Source: Deferrisoma camini S3R1
Lineage (GTDB): Bacteria > Desulfobacterota > Deferrisomatia > Deferrisomatales > Deferrisomataceae
DNA: 64,000 nt
Direction: 5' to 3'
Assembly (NCBI RefSeq): GCF_000526155.1
Contig: NZ_JAFN01000001.1
Coordinates: 1,492,501-1,556,500, forward strand
This document shows, piece after piece, positions 11,882 through 28,321 of this stretch. The translations under genes were made by a program, and so were the position numbers. Every line of letters starts with the position of its first letter. Within the stretch, counting starts at the first letter, position 1. The notes under the pieces were generated by a model, which was not told the DNA's origin, searched no databases, and was given only the letters and a program-made list of their open reading frames with translations.

Positions 11882-11930
11882 TGGTGCGCGCGAGAGGATT
11901 CGAACCCCTGACCTGCGGATCCGTAGTCCG
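11882..11930 (-). repeat. att site: 3' part of tRNA-Arg(ACG), left end of island
   Basis: The 49 bases, read on the minus strand, give the 3' portion of a tRNA: part of the anticodon stem, loop CTACGGA with anticodon ACG, variable region, T arm (GGGGTTCGAATCC), acceptor strand CGCGCGC, discriminator A and encoded CCA. No 5' half follows to the right. An identical 49-bp copy lies at 28273-28321. These are the crossover repeats left by integrases that use the 3' end of a tRNA gene. Confidence 0.9.
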
Positions 11931-12127: not shown

Positions 12128-13435
12128 ATGCCCGCCCGCCCGACGACGAAAACGAAGGCTCGCAAGACCTACCCGACCAGGACCTTGGAACCCCGCAAGC
12201 TCACCAAGCGCGCCATCGAGGCGATTCCGGTTCCGGCCGAGGGCGCGGTGCTGGTGCGCGACACGGCGTTGACCGGGTTCGGTGTGAAGGTGGCGCATAC
12301 GGGCCGGGCGGTGTTCTTCTTCGAGGCGAAGGTCCGAGGCCGCGCCAAGCGGTGGACCATCGGCCCCTTCGGACCGCTCACCGTTGACCAGGCGCGCTTG
12401 CAGGCGAAGGCCCTCGCGGGGGAACTCGCCAAGGGCGAAGACCCCGACTCGAAGGCGAAGGCCGAGGAACTGGAAGCCCGTACGCTGGGCGATGCCGTGG
12501 CCGAGTACCTGGAAACCCGCGACCTCAAGGAACGCACCCGCCAAGACGTGACCAAGACCTTGAACCGGAACTTCAAGGACTGGATGAAGCGACGGGTGAC
12601 CGACCTGCGGCCCGAAGACGTGCGGAAGCGCTACGTGGAGGTTTCCGCCCGGGCGCCCGGGGAGGCGAACCGCGCCTTCCGGTACCTCCGGGCCGTTCTG
12701 GGGTTCGTGCAGGCCGCCTGGCGCACCCCGGACGGGGAACCCGTGCTGCGGGAGAACCCTGTGAAGGTGCTTTCGGCTGCACGTGCATGGAAGAAGCTGC
12801 AACCTCGCCGGACCGTGATCGAACCCCACGAACTCGGCCCGTGGTTCGAGGCCGTGCTGGCCGACCCCGACCCGGTGGCCCGGGACTTCTTCCGGTTCGT
12901 GCTCCTGACCGGGTGCCGCCGCTCGGAGGCCACGAACCTCACCTGGGACCAGGTGGACCTCGTGGGCGGAAAGGTGACCTTCCGGGACACGAAGGCCCGG
13001 CGGGACCATACCTTGCCCCTGGGCCCCTACCTCTGGGGGCTCCTGAAGCGCCGCCGGGAGACAGCCGGCGACCCCTGGGTGTTCTCCGAACGGGTGACCA
13101 CGGACCGGCGCCGCCAGGACGAACGGTTCGAGAACGTGCGCTACGCCCTGAACCGGATCCAAAAGGCTTCGGGCGTGACCTTCACCGTTCACGACCTCCG
13201 GCGCACCTTCGCCACGGTGGCCGAGAGCCTGGACCTTTCGAGCTACGCCGTGAAGGCCCTTCTGAACCACGCCCTGCCCCGGGAAGACGTGACGGCCGGC
13301 TACCTACGCTTGACCCCCGAGCGCCTGCGGGACGCGATGGAGAAGGTGGAGCGCCGCATCCTCACATTGGCCGGGATCGAGCCGGGTGCCGAAGTGATCC
13401 CGTTTCCGGGTGCCGGGAACGGCGCCGACGGGTAG
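12128..13435 (+). CDS. Tyrosine integrase of the island (P4-like)
   Basis: The 435-residue site-specific recombinase has an N-terminal DUF4102-like DNA-binding domain (LTKRAIEAIPVP through FGPLTVDQARLQAKALAGELAKG), a SAM-like core-binding domain (about 120-200) and a catalytic domain. Catalytic residues are visible in LLTGCRRSEATNL (first Arg), HDLRRTF (His-x-x-Arg), LLNHALP and the Tyr in VTAGYLRL. Its place beside the left att repeat and the nearby excisionase-like gene identify it as the enzyme of this island. It should recombine the tRNA 3' end. Confidence 0.93.
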   Translation: MPARPTTKTKARKTYPTRTLEPRKLTKRAIEAIPVPAEGAVLVRDTALTGFGVKVAHTGRAVFFFEAKVRGRAKRWTIGPFGPLTVDQARLQAKALAGELAKGEDPDSKAKAEELEARTLGDAVAEYLETRDLKERTRQDVTKTLNRNFKDWMKRRVTDLRPEDVRKRYVEVSARAPGEANRAFRYLRAVLGFVQAAWRTPDGEPVLRENPVKVLSAARAWKKLQPRRTVIEPHELGPWFEAVLADPDPVARDFFRFVLLTGCRRSEATNLTWDQVDLVGGKVTFRDTKARRDHTLPLGPYLWGLLKRRRETAGDPWVFSERVTTDRRRQDERFENVRYALNRIQKASGVTFTVHDLRRTFATVAESLDLSSYAVKALLNHALPREDVTAGYLRLTPERLRDAMEKVERRILTLAGIEPGAEVIPFPGAGNGADG

Positions 13436-13546: not shown

Positions 13547-13762
13547 CTATGCCGCGACTTTGGGGCCGGCGTCCGATGTGGACGCTCTCGTACACTCTTC
13601 GAGAAACGCATCCAAATCGCTCAGGGCATACCTGACGGCGCGGCCCAACTTTTTCCAAGCGGGGCCGATACCCTTCTGCCTCCAGGCCTGCAAAGTCCGC
13701 ACGGAGAGTCCCAGGTACGCCGCCGCCTCTTTCTCGTTCATCAGCTTGACCTTCTCGCTCAT
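13547..13762 (-). CDS. Excisionase-like helix-turn-helix protein
   Basis: The 71-residue protein is a winged helix-turn-helix of the excisionase/AlpA-like type: MNEKEAAAYLGLSVRTLQAWRQKGIGPAW followed by a YALSDLDAFLEE wing. AGGAGGT precedes the ATG at 13762. Such proteins bend att DNA to direct excision. It is convergent with the integrase gene, a common arrangement in integrative islands. Confidence 0.85.
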   Translation of the reverse strand: MSEKVKLMNEKEAAAYLGLSVRTLQAWRQKGIGPAWKKLGRAVRYALSDLDAFLEECTRASTSDAGPKVAA

Positions 13763-14152
13763 CTAGCACCTCCTTTCGCCCTGGAGTTGTCTGGACTCCC
13801 TTCCCGCGCCCGGGCGTTCGGCGACGGGACAGGGAATGCGCTGCCCCCTCATCCTGTACTGCCCGGACAGAGGACATTCTTGGGGCCCACCTCCGGAAAA
13901 AAATCGCATCCCGGGCTCGTGGGGGTCCGGCGACGGGGGTCTTGACGAGGGGCAAAAGGCGGGGCGGACTCCGCTGGAGCGTTGGCAATGACGTTTTCCG
14001 TTCCCGGAAGAGATCGCAACGCATGGCACTTGACAGTAAAAGAACGCCACCAACAGTAACAGCGCTCTTCGCCTCATCACTCAGGCCACGGCGCTACGTA
14101 AGTGCCCGTCCATGATGTGTGGCTCAATGCCATTTTCTTGCCCGCGTTCTGC
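13763..14152. other. Gene-free stretch upstream of the excisionase-like gene
   Basis: A 105-codon frame on the minus strand (14080-13763) is open but has no credible ribosome site or domain and abuts the excisionase start. I see no supported gene here. Confidence 0.5.
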
Positions 14153-14181
14153 TTGACGAACCTGGGTGGGTGTGTTATAGG
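14153..14181 (+). promoter_or_regulatory. Promoter of the hairpin-rich leader
   Basis: TTGACG (14153-14158), a 17-base spacer and TATAGG (14176-14181) form a convincing sigma-70-type promoter. No start codon with a ribosome site follows closely. A transcript from here would run through the structured region towards the recombinase gene at 15243. Confidence 0.6.
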
Positions 14182-14201
14182 GGTTGCAAGCTTTCCTTCC
14201 T

Positions 14202-15068
14202 CCGCCTGTCGCCATACAGGCGGTGAATCCCCCACTGAGGGGAACCTAGACACCACGGTTTGAGTGTCTCATCAGCAGACCCAAGGGCCTCCTTGCGTCT
14301 GCGGTGCCTTCGCAGTCGTTGTCCCTCCACGTCGTCATGCCTGCCCCACGGGCGGGCACGAGCGCCAAGGACTCACCCGGTACGCCTCACGTGACATGAG
14401 AGGCTGCGCGTTTCGCACGGCTTCTCATCCGGACACTCTGGAACAGCCACACGAGCGGTATCGATCTCGCACGGGGCCGACGCCGGCTTGCAGGCCGCCG
14501 GGCGTCCGGACCCCCTGAACTGCGACGACTGAACCGCGGCGACGGGCCGCTGCGCGCCGCACCGGCCCGGAGACGACCATCACGCCTTGGGCCTGCCGGA
14601 GAGGGGCACCCCTGGCCGGCGGGCCGGGTCTCTGTCTCTGCGCCCCGCAGAGACAGAGACCCCGGAAGACCCCCGAAGGGAAACGGCAAGAAGACGCAAC
14701 CACCGACATTTTCTGGGCATTTCGCACGGCAAGGGCGACCGAACATCGGCCGGAAGGCCGACGAAAAATCCCGAAAATCCCGTCTTCCAGGGGGGGAGGC
14801 TGACGAGGACGAGTCAGCCCCCTTCGGTGTGAACCCGGTATCCCACGGCGTCGCGCCCGGACGCAGACGAGGGGAGTCTGCGTCGGCCGCATCCTCCACC
14901 GGGATCTTCCCCGTGTCCGTTTTGGACACCGTGGGGCCTTGCGGCCACCGCGTCGTGGGAAGACGCTGACGAGGCGAGTCAGCGTCCCGGCGCCCCACTC
15001 TCCCTGCCTGCTCCTTCCGCCACCTCCCGAAAAAAATCCCGCCCGGCTCGGCGTCCGGATCGGACGCC
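14202..15068 (+). other. Gene-free region with a series of perfect hairpins; candidate structured RNA or DNA element
   Basis: No reading frame with a ribosome site is supported between 14190 and 15240. The stretch contains a series of inverted repeats: 14202-14223 (8 bp), 14248-14269 (6 bp), 14626-14662 (17 bp, three-base loop), 14746-14761 (6 bp, GGAA loop), three related hairpins at 14798-14819, 14861-14883 and 14962-14986, 14913-14929 (6 bp) and 15050-15068 (7 bp). A promoter lies just upstream and a recombinase gene downstream. Several loops contain GGA, as in CsrA-titrating RNAs, but a DNA role such as a transfer or replication site is equally possible. Confidence 0.5.
14798..14986 (+). 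repeat. Three related hairpins with conserved GAGG-GA loop
   Basis: The stems are GGCTGAC/GTCAGCC (14798-14819), ACGCAGAC/GTCTGCGT (14861-14883) and GACGCTGAC/GTCAGCGTC (14962-14986). The loops are GAGGACGA, GAGGGGA and GAGGCGA. The second copy changes T-A to A-T within the stem on both arms, so pairing is kept while sequence varies. Confidence 0.7.
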
Positions 15069-15122
15069 CTCGCCTACCCGCGACCCGGCTCTGGTGGGTC
15101 CACAAAGGCGACGAGAGCCCGG

Positions 15123-15219
15123 CGGTTCACATAGATGCCCTGTGAGGGAACGCCCCTCACACCGCAGCTCGGGCGGCGAACCGAGTGACCACTGAACCGT
15201 CTCCCAGGGTGGCATCTAT
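15123..15219 (+). promoter_or_regulatory. Pseudoknot-like inverted repeats in the leader of the Integrase_1 gene
   Basis: CGGTTCA (15123-15129) can pair with TGAACCG (15193-15199), and ATAGATGCC (15131-15139) with GGCATCTAT (15211-15219). The order a-b-a'-b' is that of a pseudoknot. GTGAGGG with CCCCTCAC forms a further hairpin between them. The structure ends about 13 bases before the AAAGGAGGT ribosome site, so it could control translation; the repeats might instead be recombinase binding sites. Confidence 0.45.
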
Positions 15220-15242
15220 CCCCCACAGGAAAGGAGGTCCGC

Positions 15243-16190
15243 ATGAAGGTAGGAGGCCACAGGAACTTTGGCTGGGGCCGCAAGATGGCCTGGGCGGGAC
15301 GCCAGGCCCTCAACCATGCGTATGGCGGCGGGCACTACGCCACGGTCGCGGCTCACGCGAGCCGATGGGGAGAGTTCGCGCGATGGGCAAAGGAACAGGG
15401 GATCCGCGACGCGCGGGACGTGACCCGGGAGGTGCTGGAGCGATACGGGCAACACCTCGCCGAGAGGGTGCTGAAAGGAGAGATGAAAGTCGCCTACGCT
15501 CAAAACCTCTTGTCGAGCGCCAACGTGACGCTGTCGGCGTTGCGGCAGGACGATCGGGTCCGTGTCTCGCCGCGCGAGCTTGTCGGTCAGCGCACTACGG
15601 TGCGAACGGACGCCCCGAAGGGACTGGACCGCGACGCCGTGGCCCGTGCGGCAGATGCCCTACGGGAGCGCGGGCACGAACGGGCGGCGGCGGTCATCGA
15701 ATTGGCCCGGGATCTCGGCCTTCGGATGCGCGAGGCGTCCATGTTGGACGCCAAGAGCGCCCTGCGGCAGGCCGAGCGCACGGGCCGGGTGGACATTCGA
15801 GAAGGAACGAAGGGAGGCCGAGGCGCGTTCGTCGAGCGGTTGGTCCCGGTGTCGGACCGGGCGATGGAGACGCTCAGGCGGGCGGCCGAGGCCCAGGGCG
15901 AGGCCAGGAACCTCATCCCGACGGACAACTCCTGGAAGGAGTTCCGAAACCACGTCCACGGGGTGTGGCGGGAGGTTCGCGACGAGTATGGACTGGGAAA
16001 GATCCACGACCTGCGGGCGGCCTACGCCTGCGAGCGCTACGAGGAGTTGACCGGGCACGAGGCCCCGGTCCTCGCGGGCGGGCGCACCGCGTCCGACGAA
16101 GACGACAAGGCGGCCCGCAGGCAGGTCTCCTACGAACTCGGCCACGGCCGCATGGACGTGGCGAGCGAGTACATCGGTGGAAGGAGGTAA
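15243..16190 (+). CDS. Integrase_1-type tyrosine recombinase
   Basis: The 315-residue protein matches the Phage_int_SAM_2 plus Integrase_1 class found in integrative elements. The N-terminal region starts GHRNFGWGRKMAWAGRQAL. A SAM-like domain (about 25-110) follows, then a catalytic domain with Arg in LGLRMREASML, HDLRAAYACERY and the Tyr in ELGHGRMDVASEYIGG. AAGGAGGT precedes the ATG. It is followed after five bases by a small basic gene, and preceded by the structured leader. Proteins of this class often act in element-specific recombination; the target here is unknown. Confidence 0.85.
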   Translation: MKVGGHRNFGWGRKMAWAGRQALNHAYGGGHYATVAAHASRWGEFARWAKEQGIRDARDVTREVLERYGQHLAERVLKGEMKVAYAQNLLSSANVTLSALRQDDRVRVSPRELVGQRTTVRTDAPKGLDRDAVARAADALRERGHERAAAVIELARDLGLRMREASMLDAKSALRQAERTGRVDIREGTKGGRGAFVERLVPVSDRAMETLRRAAEAQGEARNLIPTDNSWKEFRNHVHGVWREVRDEYGLGKIHDLRAAYACERYEELTGHEAPVLAGGRTASDEDDKAARRQVSYELGHGRMDVASEYIGGRR

Positions 16191-16195
16191 GCGCG

Positions 16196-16576
16196 ATGGC
16201 GGCACCGAAGACCCACGTTCGGGCCAGACAAATCGGCGAGAGCCTGCTTGCCCGGTCGATCCCGGGAAGCAGCAAGCGAAAGCGCGACTACCTGGGTCTC
16301 GCTGGCCTCATCGCCGAGAGGATTTGGAAGCGCTGGAAGGTGGGGCCGTGGCAGTGGCGGTGCAAGCACGTCCGGTGGTACCTGGACGTGGCCACTGCCG
16401 ACCTGTCGCCCCGGTGGAGATACAAGCACTGGCTCGCCCTGAAGGCCATGATCGCGGCCCGAGGCAAGCTGAACGATTGGGAGCCGCGTCTGCGCGGCCC
16501 GTGGCTGAGGCCCACGGGCGAGTGGACGAAGCCCGTCGCAACGCGCCGACCGTTCCGGCTCCCCCGGTCGGCCTGA
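16196..16576 (+). CDS. Small basic protein downstream of the recombinase, unknown
   Basis: The 126-residue protein begins at ATG 16196 after AAGGAGGTAAGCGCG. It is rich in Trp, Arg and Lys (KRWKVGPWQWRCKHVRWYL, RWRYKHWLALKAMI) with a Pro-rich tail, which suggests a nucleic-acid-binding partner. It starts five bases after the recombinase stop and ends before a terminator, so the two form an operon. I do not recognise the family. Confidence 0.75.
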   Translation: MAAPKTHVRARQIGESLLARSIPGSSKRKRDYLGLAGLIAERIWKRWKVGPWQWRCKHVRWYLDVATADLSPRWRYKHWLALKAMIAARGKLNDWEPRLRGPWLRPTGEWTKPVATRRPFRLPRSA

Positions 16577-16978: not shown

Positions 16979-17701
16979 TCAAGGGAGGGGGTGCAACGGT
17001 TCCCGATGGGCCACAGGGTCGCCGAAGTCGGCGGGGCTTTGGACGGCAAGGCCGGGCCGGTTCAGAACGTGCGTGTAGATCATGGTCGCCGACACATCCG
17101 CATGGCCGAGCAGCTCCTGAACCGTCCGGATGTCCGAACCGGCCTCGAGCAAGCAGGTGGCAGACGAATGGCGCAAGGGGTGGCGGGAAACGGGCTTTGC
17201 GATACCAGCCCTTTTCGCGGCACGCCGGACCGCCTTCAGGGCCCCTGCCTCATGGATGTGGCGACGTCGTACGATCCCCGATTTTGGATCGGTGGAGAGC
17301 CTGTGCGAGGGGAAGACCCACTGCCACGGCCATTCGGCCCCGGCGGAAGGACACTGGACACCGGGCGCCCAAGGAACGTTGAGCATGGTGTAGAGCAGGC
17401 GGACGACATCGACCCACCGGGCGACCTGCCATGCCTCCAGAGCGGGCTTCCTCAGGTAGCGGGAGAAGTAAGCCTCAACGTCTTCGGGGAAACGGTTGGC
17501 AATCCTCCGCCCCGTTCCATAGCGGACAAAGTGTTGAGCGCGACGCACGCACCAGTCCGCAGCGTATCCCCTCGTCCCCGAGAACATCCCGGTAGCGCTT
17601 CCAAAAGATCCTTGCCTTGGCGGAGGACCTCCCCTGGATTGGTAGTGGGGATACCATGACGAGTCTCTAGGGCTGGCGTTCGCGCGTGCACGTTTCGTCA
17701 C
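16979..17701 (-). pseudogene. Decayed integron integrase gene
   Basis: The C-terminal ~130 residues are clearly an integron integrase: [65 protein letters not shown]. The segment between the N-terminal domain ([17 protein letters not shown]...LLYTMLN) and this part, about 200 residues holding the first catalytic Arg, is missing. The usual N-terminal motif [13 protein letters not shown] is present but in another frame (near 17590), so there is a frameshift as well. The layout suggests the long variant of IntI with an extra N-terminal domain. It could not recombine, so the cassette array is frozen unless an integrase acts in trans. Confidence 0.8.
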
Positions 17702-17785: not shown

Positions 17786-18199
17786 ATGCCAAGAACGTAC
17801 AATTTATTTATAAGCCATTCGTGGGCATATAGTGATGCATATGAAAAATTGGTATCATTGCTTGATGCAAAGCCATACTTCATATATAAAAATCACTCTG
17901 TCCCTAAAAATGACCCAATTCATAATGCACCTTACGACTATCAGTTGTATGAAGCAATAAAAAATAAGATTACTGGAGTTCACGTTGTGTTAATTTTGGC
18001 TGGGGTGTATTCCAGTTACAGCAAATGGATTGATAAGGAAATAAAAATTGCAAAAACAGAATTCATGAGACCAAAACCTATCGTTGCTATTCAGCCTTGG
18101 GGTGCTGAGAAAACTTCTAGGAAAGTCAAAGAAGCTGCGGATAGAATCGTTGGATGGAACACTGATTCAATAGTTTCTGCTATTAGAGAATTGGCATAA
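17786..18199 (+). CDS. TIR-domain protein of the ThsB-like class
   Basis: The 137-residue protein is a single TIR-like domain of the PF08937 type: first strand and loop YNLFISHSWAYSD, then HVVLILAGVYSSYSKWIDKEI with the candidate catalytic Glu (E85), and a final PKPIVAIQPWG strand. ThsB-type TIR proteins of Thoeris defence make NAD-derived signal molecules after phage infection. It starts at ATG 17786, 16 bases after the cassette junction, and is followed after 11 bases by a three-helix membrane protein. The gene is AT-rich, unlike the flanks. The enzymatic role is inferred from the family. Confidence 0.8.
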   Translation: MPRTYNLFISHSWAYSDAYEKLVSLLDAKPYFIYKNHSVPKNDPIHNAPYDYQLYEAIKNKITGVHVVLILAGVYSSYSKWIDKEIKIAKTEFMRPKPIVAIQPWGAEKTSRKVKEAADRIVGWNTDSIVSAIRELA

Positions 18200-18210
18200 G
18201 GCAAAAAATA

Positions 18211-18732
18211 ATGTCCTTAGAAGAAACGCTATTCAGGGTAAAAAAGGCAGAATATGGGGCAAATTATGAGAGCCATTACATTGAACAGTATAAATTGTAT
18301 GTTGAAATGGCAGATCGTATTAGCAGTAGGAGACAATCTGCAAATTCATTTTTCTTATCAGTAAATACGGCAGTGGTTGCTTTAATTGGATATGTGCAGT
18401 TAGGAGGTGCTGTTGACACAAGTAATAAATTTTATTGGTTGGTAAGCATTGCTGGCATGGCCTTATGTTATACATGGTATCGACTGATTCGTTCATACAA
18501 AGATCTTAATTCGGGTAAATTTAAAGTCATTCATGTTATGGAGAAAAATTTACCAATAGCGCCATATGATGCAGAATGGGAATCATTGGAACGCGGTAAG
18601 AATCCTAAGATTTATCATCCATTTACAAGAGTAGAAATGGTTGTGCCGTGGGTGTTTTTTGCACTCCACTTGTCGGTTTTAGTGAATGTTGTTCCTTGGT
18701 CATATTGTTTTCACGTGCTAATAAACAAATAG
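18211..18732 (+). CDS. Three-helix membrane protein, RipA-like; putative partner of the TIR protein
   Basis: The 173-residue protein has a soluble N-terminal helix region (1-42, VKKAEYGANYESHYIEQYKLYVEMADRIS is its core), membrane helices at about 44-64, 74-93 and 141-163, and a cytoplasmic stretch between the second and third. The N-terminal pattern and topology resemble the RipA family of octameric membrane proteins. It follows the TIR gene by 11 bases inside the same integron cassette, so the two travel together. In known TIR systems the second gene is the effector that responds to the signal; a membrane effector is a plausible reading, not shown. Confidence 0.7.
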   Translation: MSLEETLFRVKKAEYGANYESHYIEQYKLYVEMADRISSRRQSANSFFLSVNTAVVALIGYVQLGGAVDTSNKFYWLVSIAGMALCYTWYRLIRSYKDLNSGKFKVIHVMEKNLPIAPYDAEWESLERGKNPKIYHPFTRVEMVVPWVFFALHLSVLVNVVPWSYCFHVLINK

Positions 18733-28272: not shown

Positions 28273-28321
28273 TGGTGCGCGCGAGAGGATTCGAACCCCT
28301 GACCTGCGGATCCGTAGTCCG
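28273..28321 (-). repeat. att site: second tRNA-Arg(ACG) 3' fragment, junction of island and prophage
   Basis: The 49 bases are identical to 11882-11930, but the bases beyond the anticodon stem (ACGAGCTGGG) differ and no 5' half of the tRNA follows. It serves as the right end of the island and the left end of the prophage. Confidence 0.9.

Follow-up and report, generated by a model that had tools for sequence, protein, structure and literature searches.

Structured RNAs and repeats known next to integrase genes

The radC RNA (RF01754) is a structured non-coding RNA located before DNA-handling genes, e.g. integrases (Weinberg et al. 2010), and STAXI (RF01728) comprises pseudoknots, often with UUCG loops, that occur in 2-3 tandem copies near integrase or DNA-handling genes (PMC2864571). 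Both were reported before integrases in 2010 as candidates without tested function (Weinberg et al. 2010). In the literature searched we found no later mechanism for either of them, nor one for the Integrase_1 family and its leader.

We analyzed a window of 64,000 nt from Deferrisoma camini S3R1, in which three similar hairpins (hereafter, the array) precede a gene for an Integrase_1 tyrosine recombinase. The region thus adjoins an integrase gene, which is the placement (before DNA-handling genes) of radC RNA. The likeness extends to being structured, non-coding and upstream of integrase genes of mobile elements, but the sequence of radC RNA is unrelated to the three hairpins. At the membership threshold (40 bits or more with the covariance model) no radC RNA was identified in the window or in its whole genome; the one sub-threshold match in the region scores 19.5 bits and lies on the opposite strand. 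STAXI (threshold 40.5 bits) was rejected, with no match in the genome at E up to 10, and inspection solely by eye revealed no consistent pseudoknot loop partner beside the hairpins. The STAXI repeats, which like the three copies of the array form a repeated small structure near an integrase, are nevertheless the nearest published analogue in layout, with a model that finds no match. Rfam searches at gathering and at relaxed thresholds returned no family for the array region.

The integrase and its mobile island

The array and the integrase lie inside an island of 16.4 kb that is flanked on both sides by a 49-bp tRNA segment in direct repeat, an extra copy of which is present past the end of the window:

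11882-11930: left 49-bp direct repeat, tRNA segment, likely attL
12128-13435, plus strand: P4-type integrase of the island (Arm-DNA-bind_3 + Phage_integrase)
13547-13762, minus strand: AlpA-like helix-turn-helix gene (HTH_17)
13763-15242, plus strand: non-coding stretch of 1.48 kb, from the AlpA-like gene to the integrase start
15243-16190, plus strand: Integrase_1 (PF12835) tyrosine recombinase, Pfam match above cut-off
16196-16576, plus strand: small partner ORF of ~126 aa, with homologues 3' of most related integrases
28273-28321: right 49-bp direct repeat, likely attR

Comparison across 16 homologues showed that the catalytic set of the Integrase_1 protein (R161, K190, H255, R258, H301, Y310) is intact. 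Homologues with ~34-48% identity were found on small plasmids, in Pseudomonas chromosomes and in IMG/VR contigs. Some homologues of the partner ORF match phage-integrase SAM-like domains weakly, below the curated cut-offs. The same island encodes a C-terminal fragment of a tyrosine recombinase (16979-17701, minus strand), which Pfam identifies as Phage_integrase only and which we take to resemble an integron integrase, and, at 17786-18732, a TIR protein of the ThsB type and after it an 8xMP membrane protein, possibly a defence pair.

The non-coding leader

In the stretch that separates the integrase start from the AlpA-like gene we distinguish the following elements, all on the plus strand:

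14626-14662: perfect 17-bp hairpin, GGGTCTCTGTCTCTGCG-ccc-CGCAGAGACAGAGACCC, upstream of the array
14754-14785: stretch with the short direct repeat CGAAAAATCCCGAAAATCCCG
14798-14819: hairpin 1 of the array, GGCTGAC-GAGGACGA-GTCAGCC, 7-bp stem, loop GAGGACGA; the stem resumes past an A/C mismatch
14860-14884: hairpin 2 of the array, GACGCAGAC-GAGGGGA-GTCTGCGTC, 9-bp stem; the loop is GAGGAGA in the sister species
14962-14986: hairpin 3 of the array, GACGCTGAC-GAGGCGA-GTCAGCGTC, 9-bp stem

The order in the window is thus the hairpin at 14626, the array and the intact integrase. The region 14600-15245 folds strongly (z = -5.9). A minus-strand ORF (14387-14998) spans all three hairpins and repeats the peptide DADSPR; indels relative to the sister in this stretch (1 and 4 bases) argue against its being coding, and it was set aside. 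No promoter passed a consensus scan. Just before the integrase start, 15129-15219 forms a closed multi-branch fold (ATAGATGCC...GGCATCTAT), of which ~90 bases are identical in the sister. In addition, a near-identical 19-base repeat, CCACCTCCSGAAAAAAATC, flanks the non-coding stretch (13887-13905 and 15020-15038), and its second copy could pair with the ribosome-binding site of the integrase.

The three-hairpin array

All three hairpins that the initial annotation had claimed for 14798-14986 are found there, and they exist far beyond chance: three hairpins with the same loop were obtained in 0 of 3000 dinucleotide shuffles of 13763-15242, and two in 0.07%. They have the same orientation and share a loop of the GAGG-N-GA type. 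Copies 2 and 3 match exactly the core GACGAGG-N-GAGTC that had been ascribed to all of them, whereas in copy 1 the gap comprises two bases.

A common purine-rich loop on several hairpins also characterizes the CsrA-site arrays of the CsrB/RsmY type. CsrA is encoded in this genome, and GGA is present in loops 1 and 2. However, in CsrA-binding RNAs GGA occurs in each hairpin loop, and loop 3 (GAGGCGA) lacks it both here and in the sister; the array also has far fewer sites. We therefore regard it as very improbable that these are CsrA-binding hairpins, be it as in CsrB/RsmY-type RNAs or as in CsrA-repressed leaders.

When 14190-15245 is folded as the plus strand, the stems of the array have pairing probabilities of 0.87-1.00, and the minus strand of this region folds equally well. 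Hairpins that can form on either strand, next to a tyrosine recombinase, invite comparison with integron attC sites, where hairpins likewise accompany such an enzyme: when the DNA becomes single-stranded in replication or transfer, the array might fold and be recognized by the recombinase. Weinberg et al. raise single-strand recognition by recombinases for the STAXI repeats near integrases (PMC2864571). Against this, by inspection the three hairpins contain none of the RYYYAAC/GTTRRRY boxes (R/L boxes) typical of attC, the neighbouring enzyme is Integrase_1 rather than IntI, and other members of the integrase family share the enzyme but not the array. An attC-like role thus appears improbable.

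The flanks of the copies are mostly unrelated, so that the repeat is limited to the hairpin itself. This speaks against the idea that the copies arose by recent duplication of a single palindrome and lack any function, as does the compensation of both stem differences within the 7-bp core. The copies are nonetheless similar enough for a local origin, and their only carriers are this element and its sister; on balance we consider mere duplication unlikely.

A stronger competitor, albeit one we would still call rather unlikely, is that a dimeric protein binds the hairpins as palindromes in duplex DNA, where they would serve as operators or accessory sites; candidates for such a protein would be the AlpA-like one, the integrase and the SAM-like partner. 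Inverted arms of 9 bp around a 7-bp centre would suit a dimer, the array lies between the AlpA-like gene and the recombinase, and the centres of hairpins 1 and 2 are ~63 bp apart, i.e. near six helical turns. The centres of hairpins 2 and 3, however, are separated by 102 bp, which is no whole number of turns. Moreover, a symmetric duplex site would need neither a constant GAGG-N-GA centre nor its single orientation in three copies, and a joint change of both half-sites is more readily explained by base pairing than by contacts made independently. Because of the conserved loop, the single orientation and the paired stem changes, we regard a folded single strand as a better candidate for recognition than a symmetric duplex site; the simplest such strand would be a transcript running into the integrase.

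Covariation and comparison with the sister element

The stem changes between the copies had been described as always matched. At two positions both partners have indeed changed with pairing kept (T:A to A:T and C:G to G:C), and the eighth position of copy 1 is an unpaired A/C. In an alignment of the three copies with the three sister copies 95.6% of cells pair, as compared to 25-37% when the partner is slid. Four cells are changed on both sides, a value reached by 3 of 500 shuffles, while by the number of pairs altered in both partners the array does not surpass the shuffles (249/500). All these counts derive from a single locus plus a sister of 97-98% identity, and effectively represent about two events.

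The stems of the sister element (L007/G001) are identical to those in the window, and the differences comprise a single loop position, GAGGGGA versus GAGGAGA, as well as bases in the linkers. This sparing of the stems adds little, because with about five substitutions the 50 stem bases among 189 would be expected to escape ~1 time in 5 by chance. Since the sister stems show no change at all, the case for structural selection rests on the three copies in one locus. The initial annotation had drawn that case from repetition together with covariation: the repeats, the loop in one orientation and the matched changes do fit a folded single strand, but the covariation is thin, amounting to two positions and about two events.

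Distribution of the array

Among 395 genomes of the phylum, the array is present only in its own genome and in one sister species, and the same two are the only ones in which the leader is matched along its length; elsewhere the short core pattern is limited to single occurrences. Lack of further copies in related elements had been named beforehand as evidence against selection on structure, and such copies are indeed mostly absent, with the sister species as the sole exception: no GAGG-N-GA hairpin was found at any other related integrase locus fetched for comparison. In the viral contigs scanned, the CAGAC version was matched seven times singly and never as an array. Its own genome contains no further copies of GACGAGGNGAGTC beyond the array. 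REP-type repeats are dispersed through a genome in many copies, and dispersed REP-like repeats were rejected, as no further copies were found. The three-hairpin array is best read as element-specific, i.e. as this lineage's own part of the integrase leader.

A hairpin common to most integrase relatives

The hairpin at 14626-14662 is the only GTCTCTG...CAGAGAC in its own genome. In nearly all full-length homologues fetched, a hairpin with GTCTCT/AGAGAC arms is located ~330-620 nt upstream of the integrase gene (L008-L015, L031-L034, L036-L039, L042-L050, L053). The distance is larger in L010 and L047, which have two genes in between. The homologues with this hairpin mostly share about 35-48% identity and are found both on plasmids and on chromosomes. 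Exceptions are L051 and L035, the latter with a truncated annotated integrase and one arm of the hairpin only; in L040 the upstream sequence is too short to judge. Eleven pairs (-3 to +7) are complete in 21 of 21 loci, and beyond the GTCTCT core the pairs show compensated variation; the core itself served as the search key, hence its invariance in these 21 loci is by construction. The spacer ranges from 3 to more than 10 bases between loci, and because of this variation the hairpin is ill-suited as a classical crossover core. This family-wide inverted repeat is as palindromic as the array hairpins, which is a point in favour of duplex sites. We found no description of it.

Several plasmid loci have a comparable GAAA repeat pair 3' of the GTCTCT hairpin (cf. 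the repeat at 14754-14785). In an inspection of the cointegrate junctions of the Halomonas plasmids pTHAF12_a and pTHAF12_c for a crossover site, identity stopped exactly where a record begins, possibly as an artefact of assembly.

A radC RNA is located upstream of the GTCTCT hairpin in L008, L009, L010, L043, L044 and L046-L050; at the Pseudomonas loci it ends ~100 nt before the hairpin. The Pseudomonas leader is well conserved over ~700 nt, and compensated pairs continue past the Rfam radC model towards the integrase. The other plasmid loci scanned contain no radC RNA above the cut-off. In L010 a YfjI-like gene and a hypothetical one, and in L047 a similar stretch, separate the radC-type leader from the integrase; the spacing at that point in the other Pseudomonas loci is ~35 bases. 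A structured non-coding leader is a general feature of this Integrase_1 group.

Tentatively, and at odds below even, the GTCTCT hairpin could combine with the structured leader and, in this element, with the array into an unnamed cis-acting module of Integrase_1 recombinases, of which radC RNA would be the Pseudomonas version and each lineage would have its own repeat set. The integrase or the small SAM-like protein might recognize such a module in folded form, be it RNA or DNA.

Possible role of the array

Our main reading, to which we assign a probability of roughly 45%, is that the array represents repeated putative binding sites, probably for a protein acting on the transcript, in the structured integrase leader of a mobile island. 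A transcript towards the integrase would carry the array as three copies of one putative binding site, in which the stem would provide the shape and the GAGG-N-GA loop the identity of the recognition site. A protein that binds to the array would probably tune the expression of the integrase. Counting against this reading are the negative promoter scan, the equal folding of the minus strand, the small number of covarying positions and the lack of such an array at integrase loci other than that of the sister. The locus is compact, and the combination of three matched hairpins with an intact recombinase makes it a tractable test of action at the level of RNA versus DNA; the presence of relatives of the GTCTCT hairpin on plasmids only a few kb long adds to this tractability.
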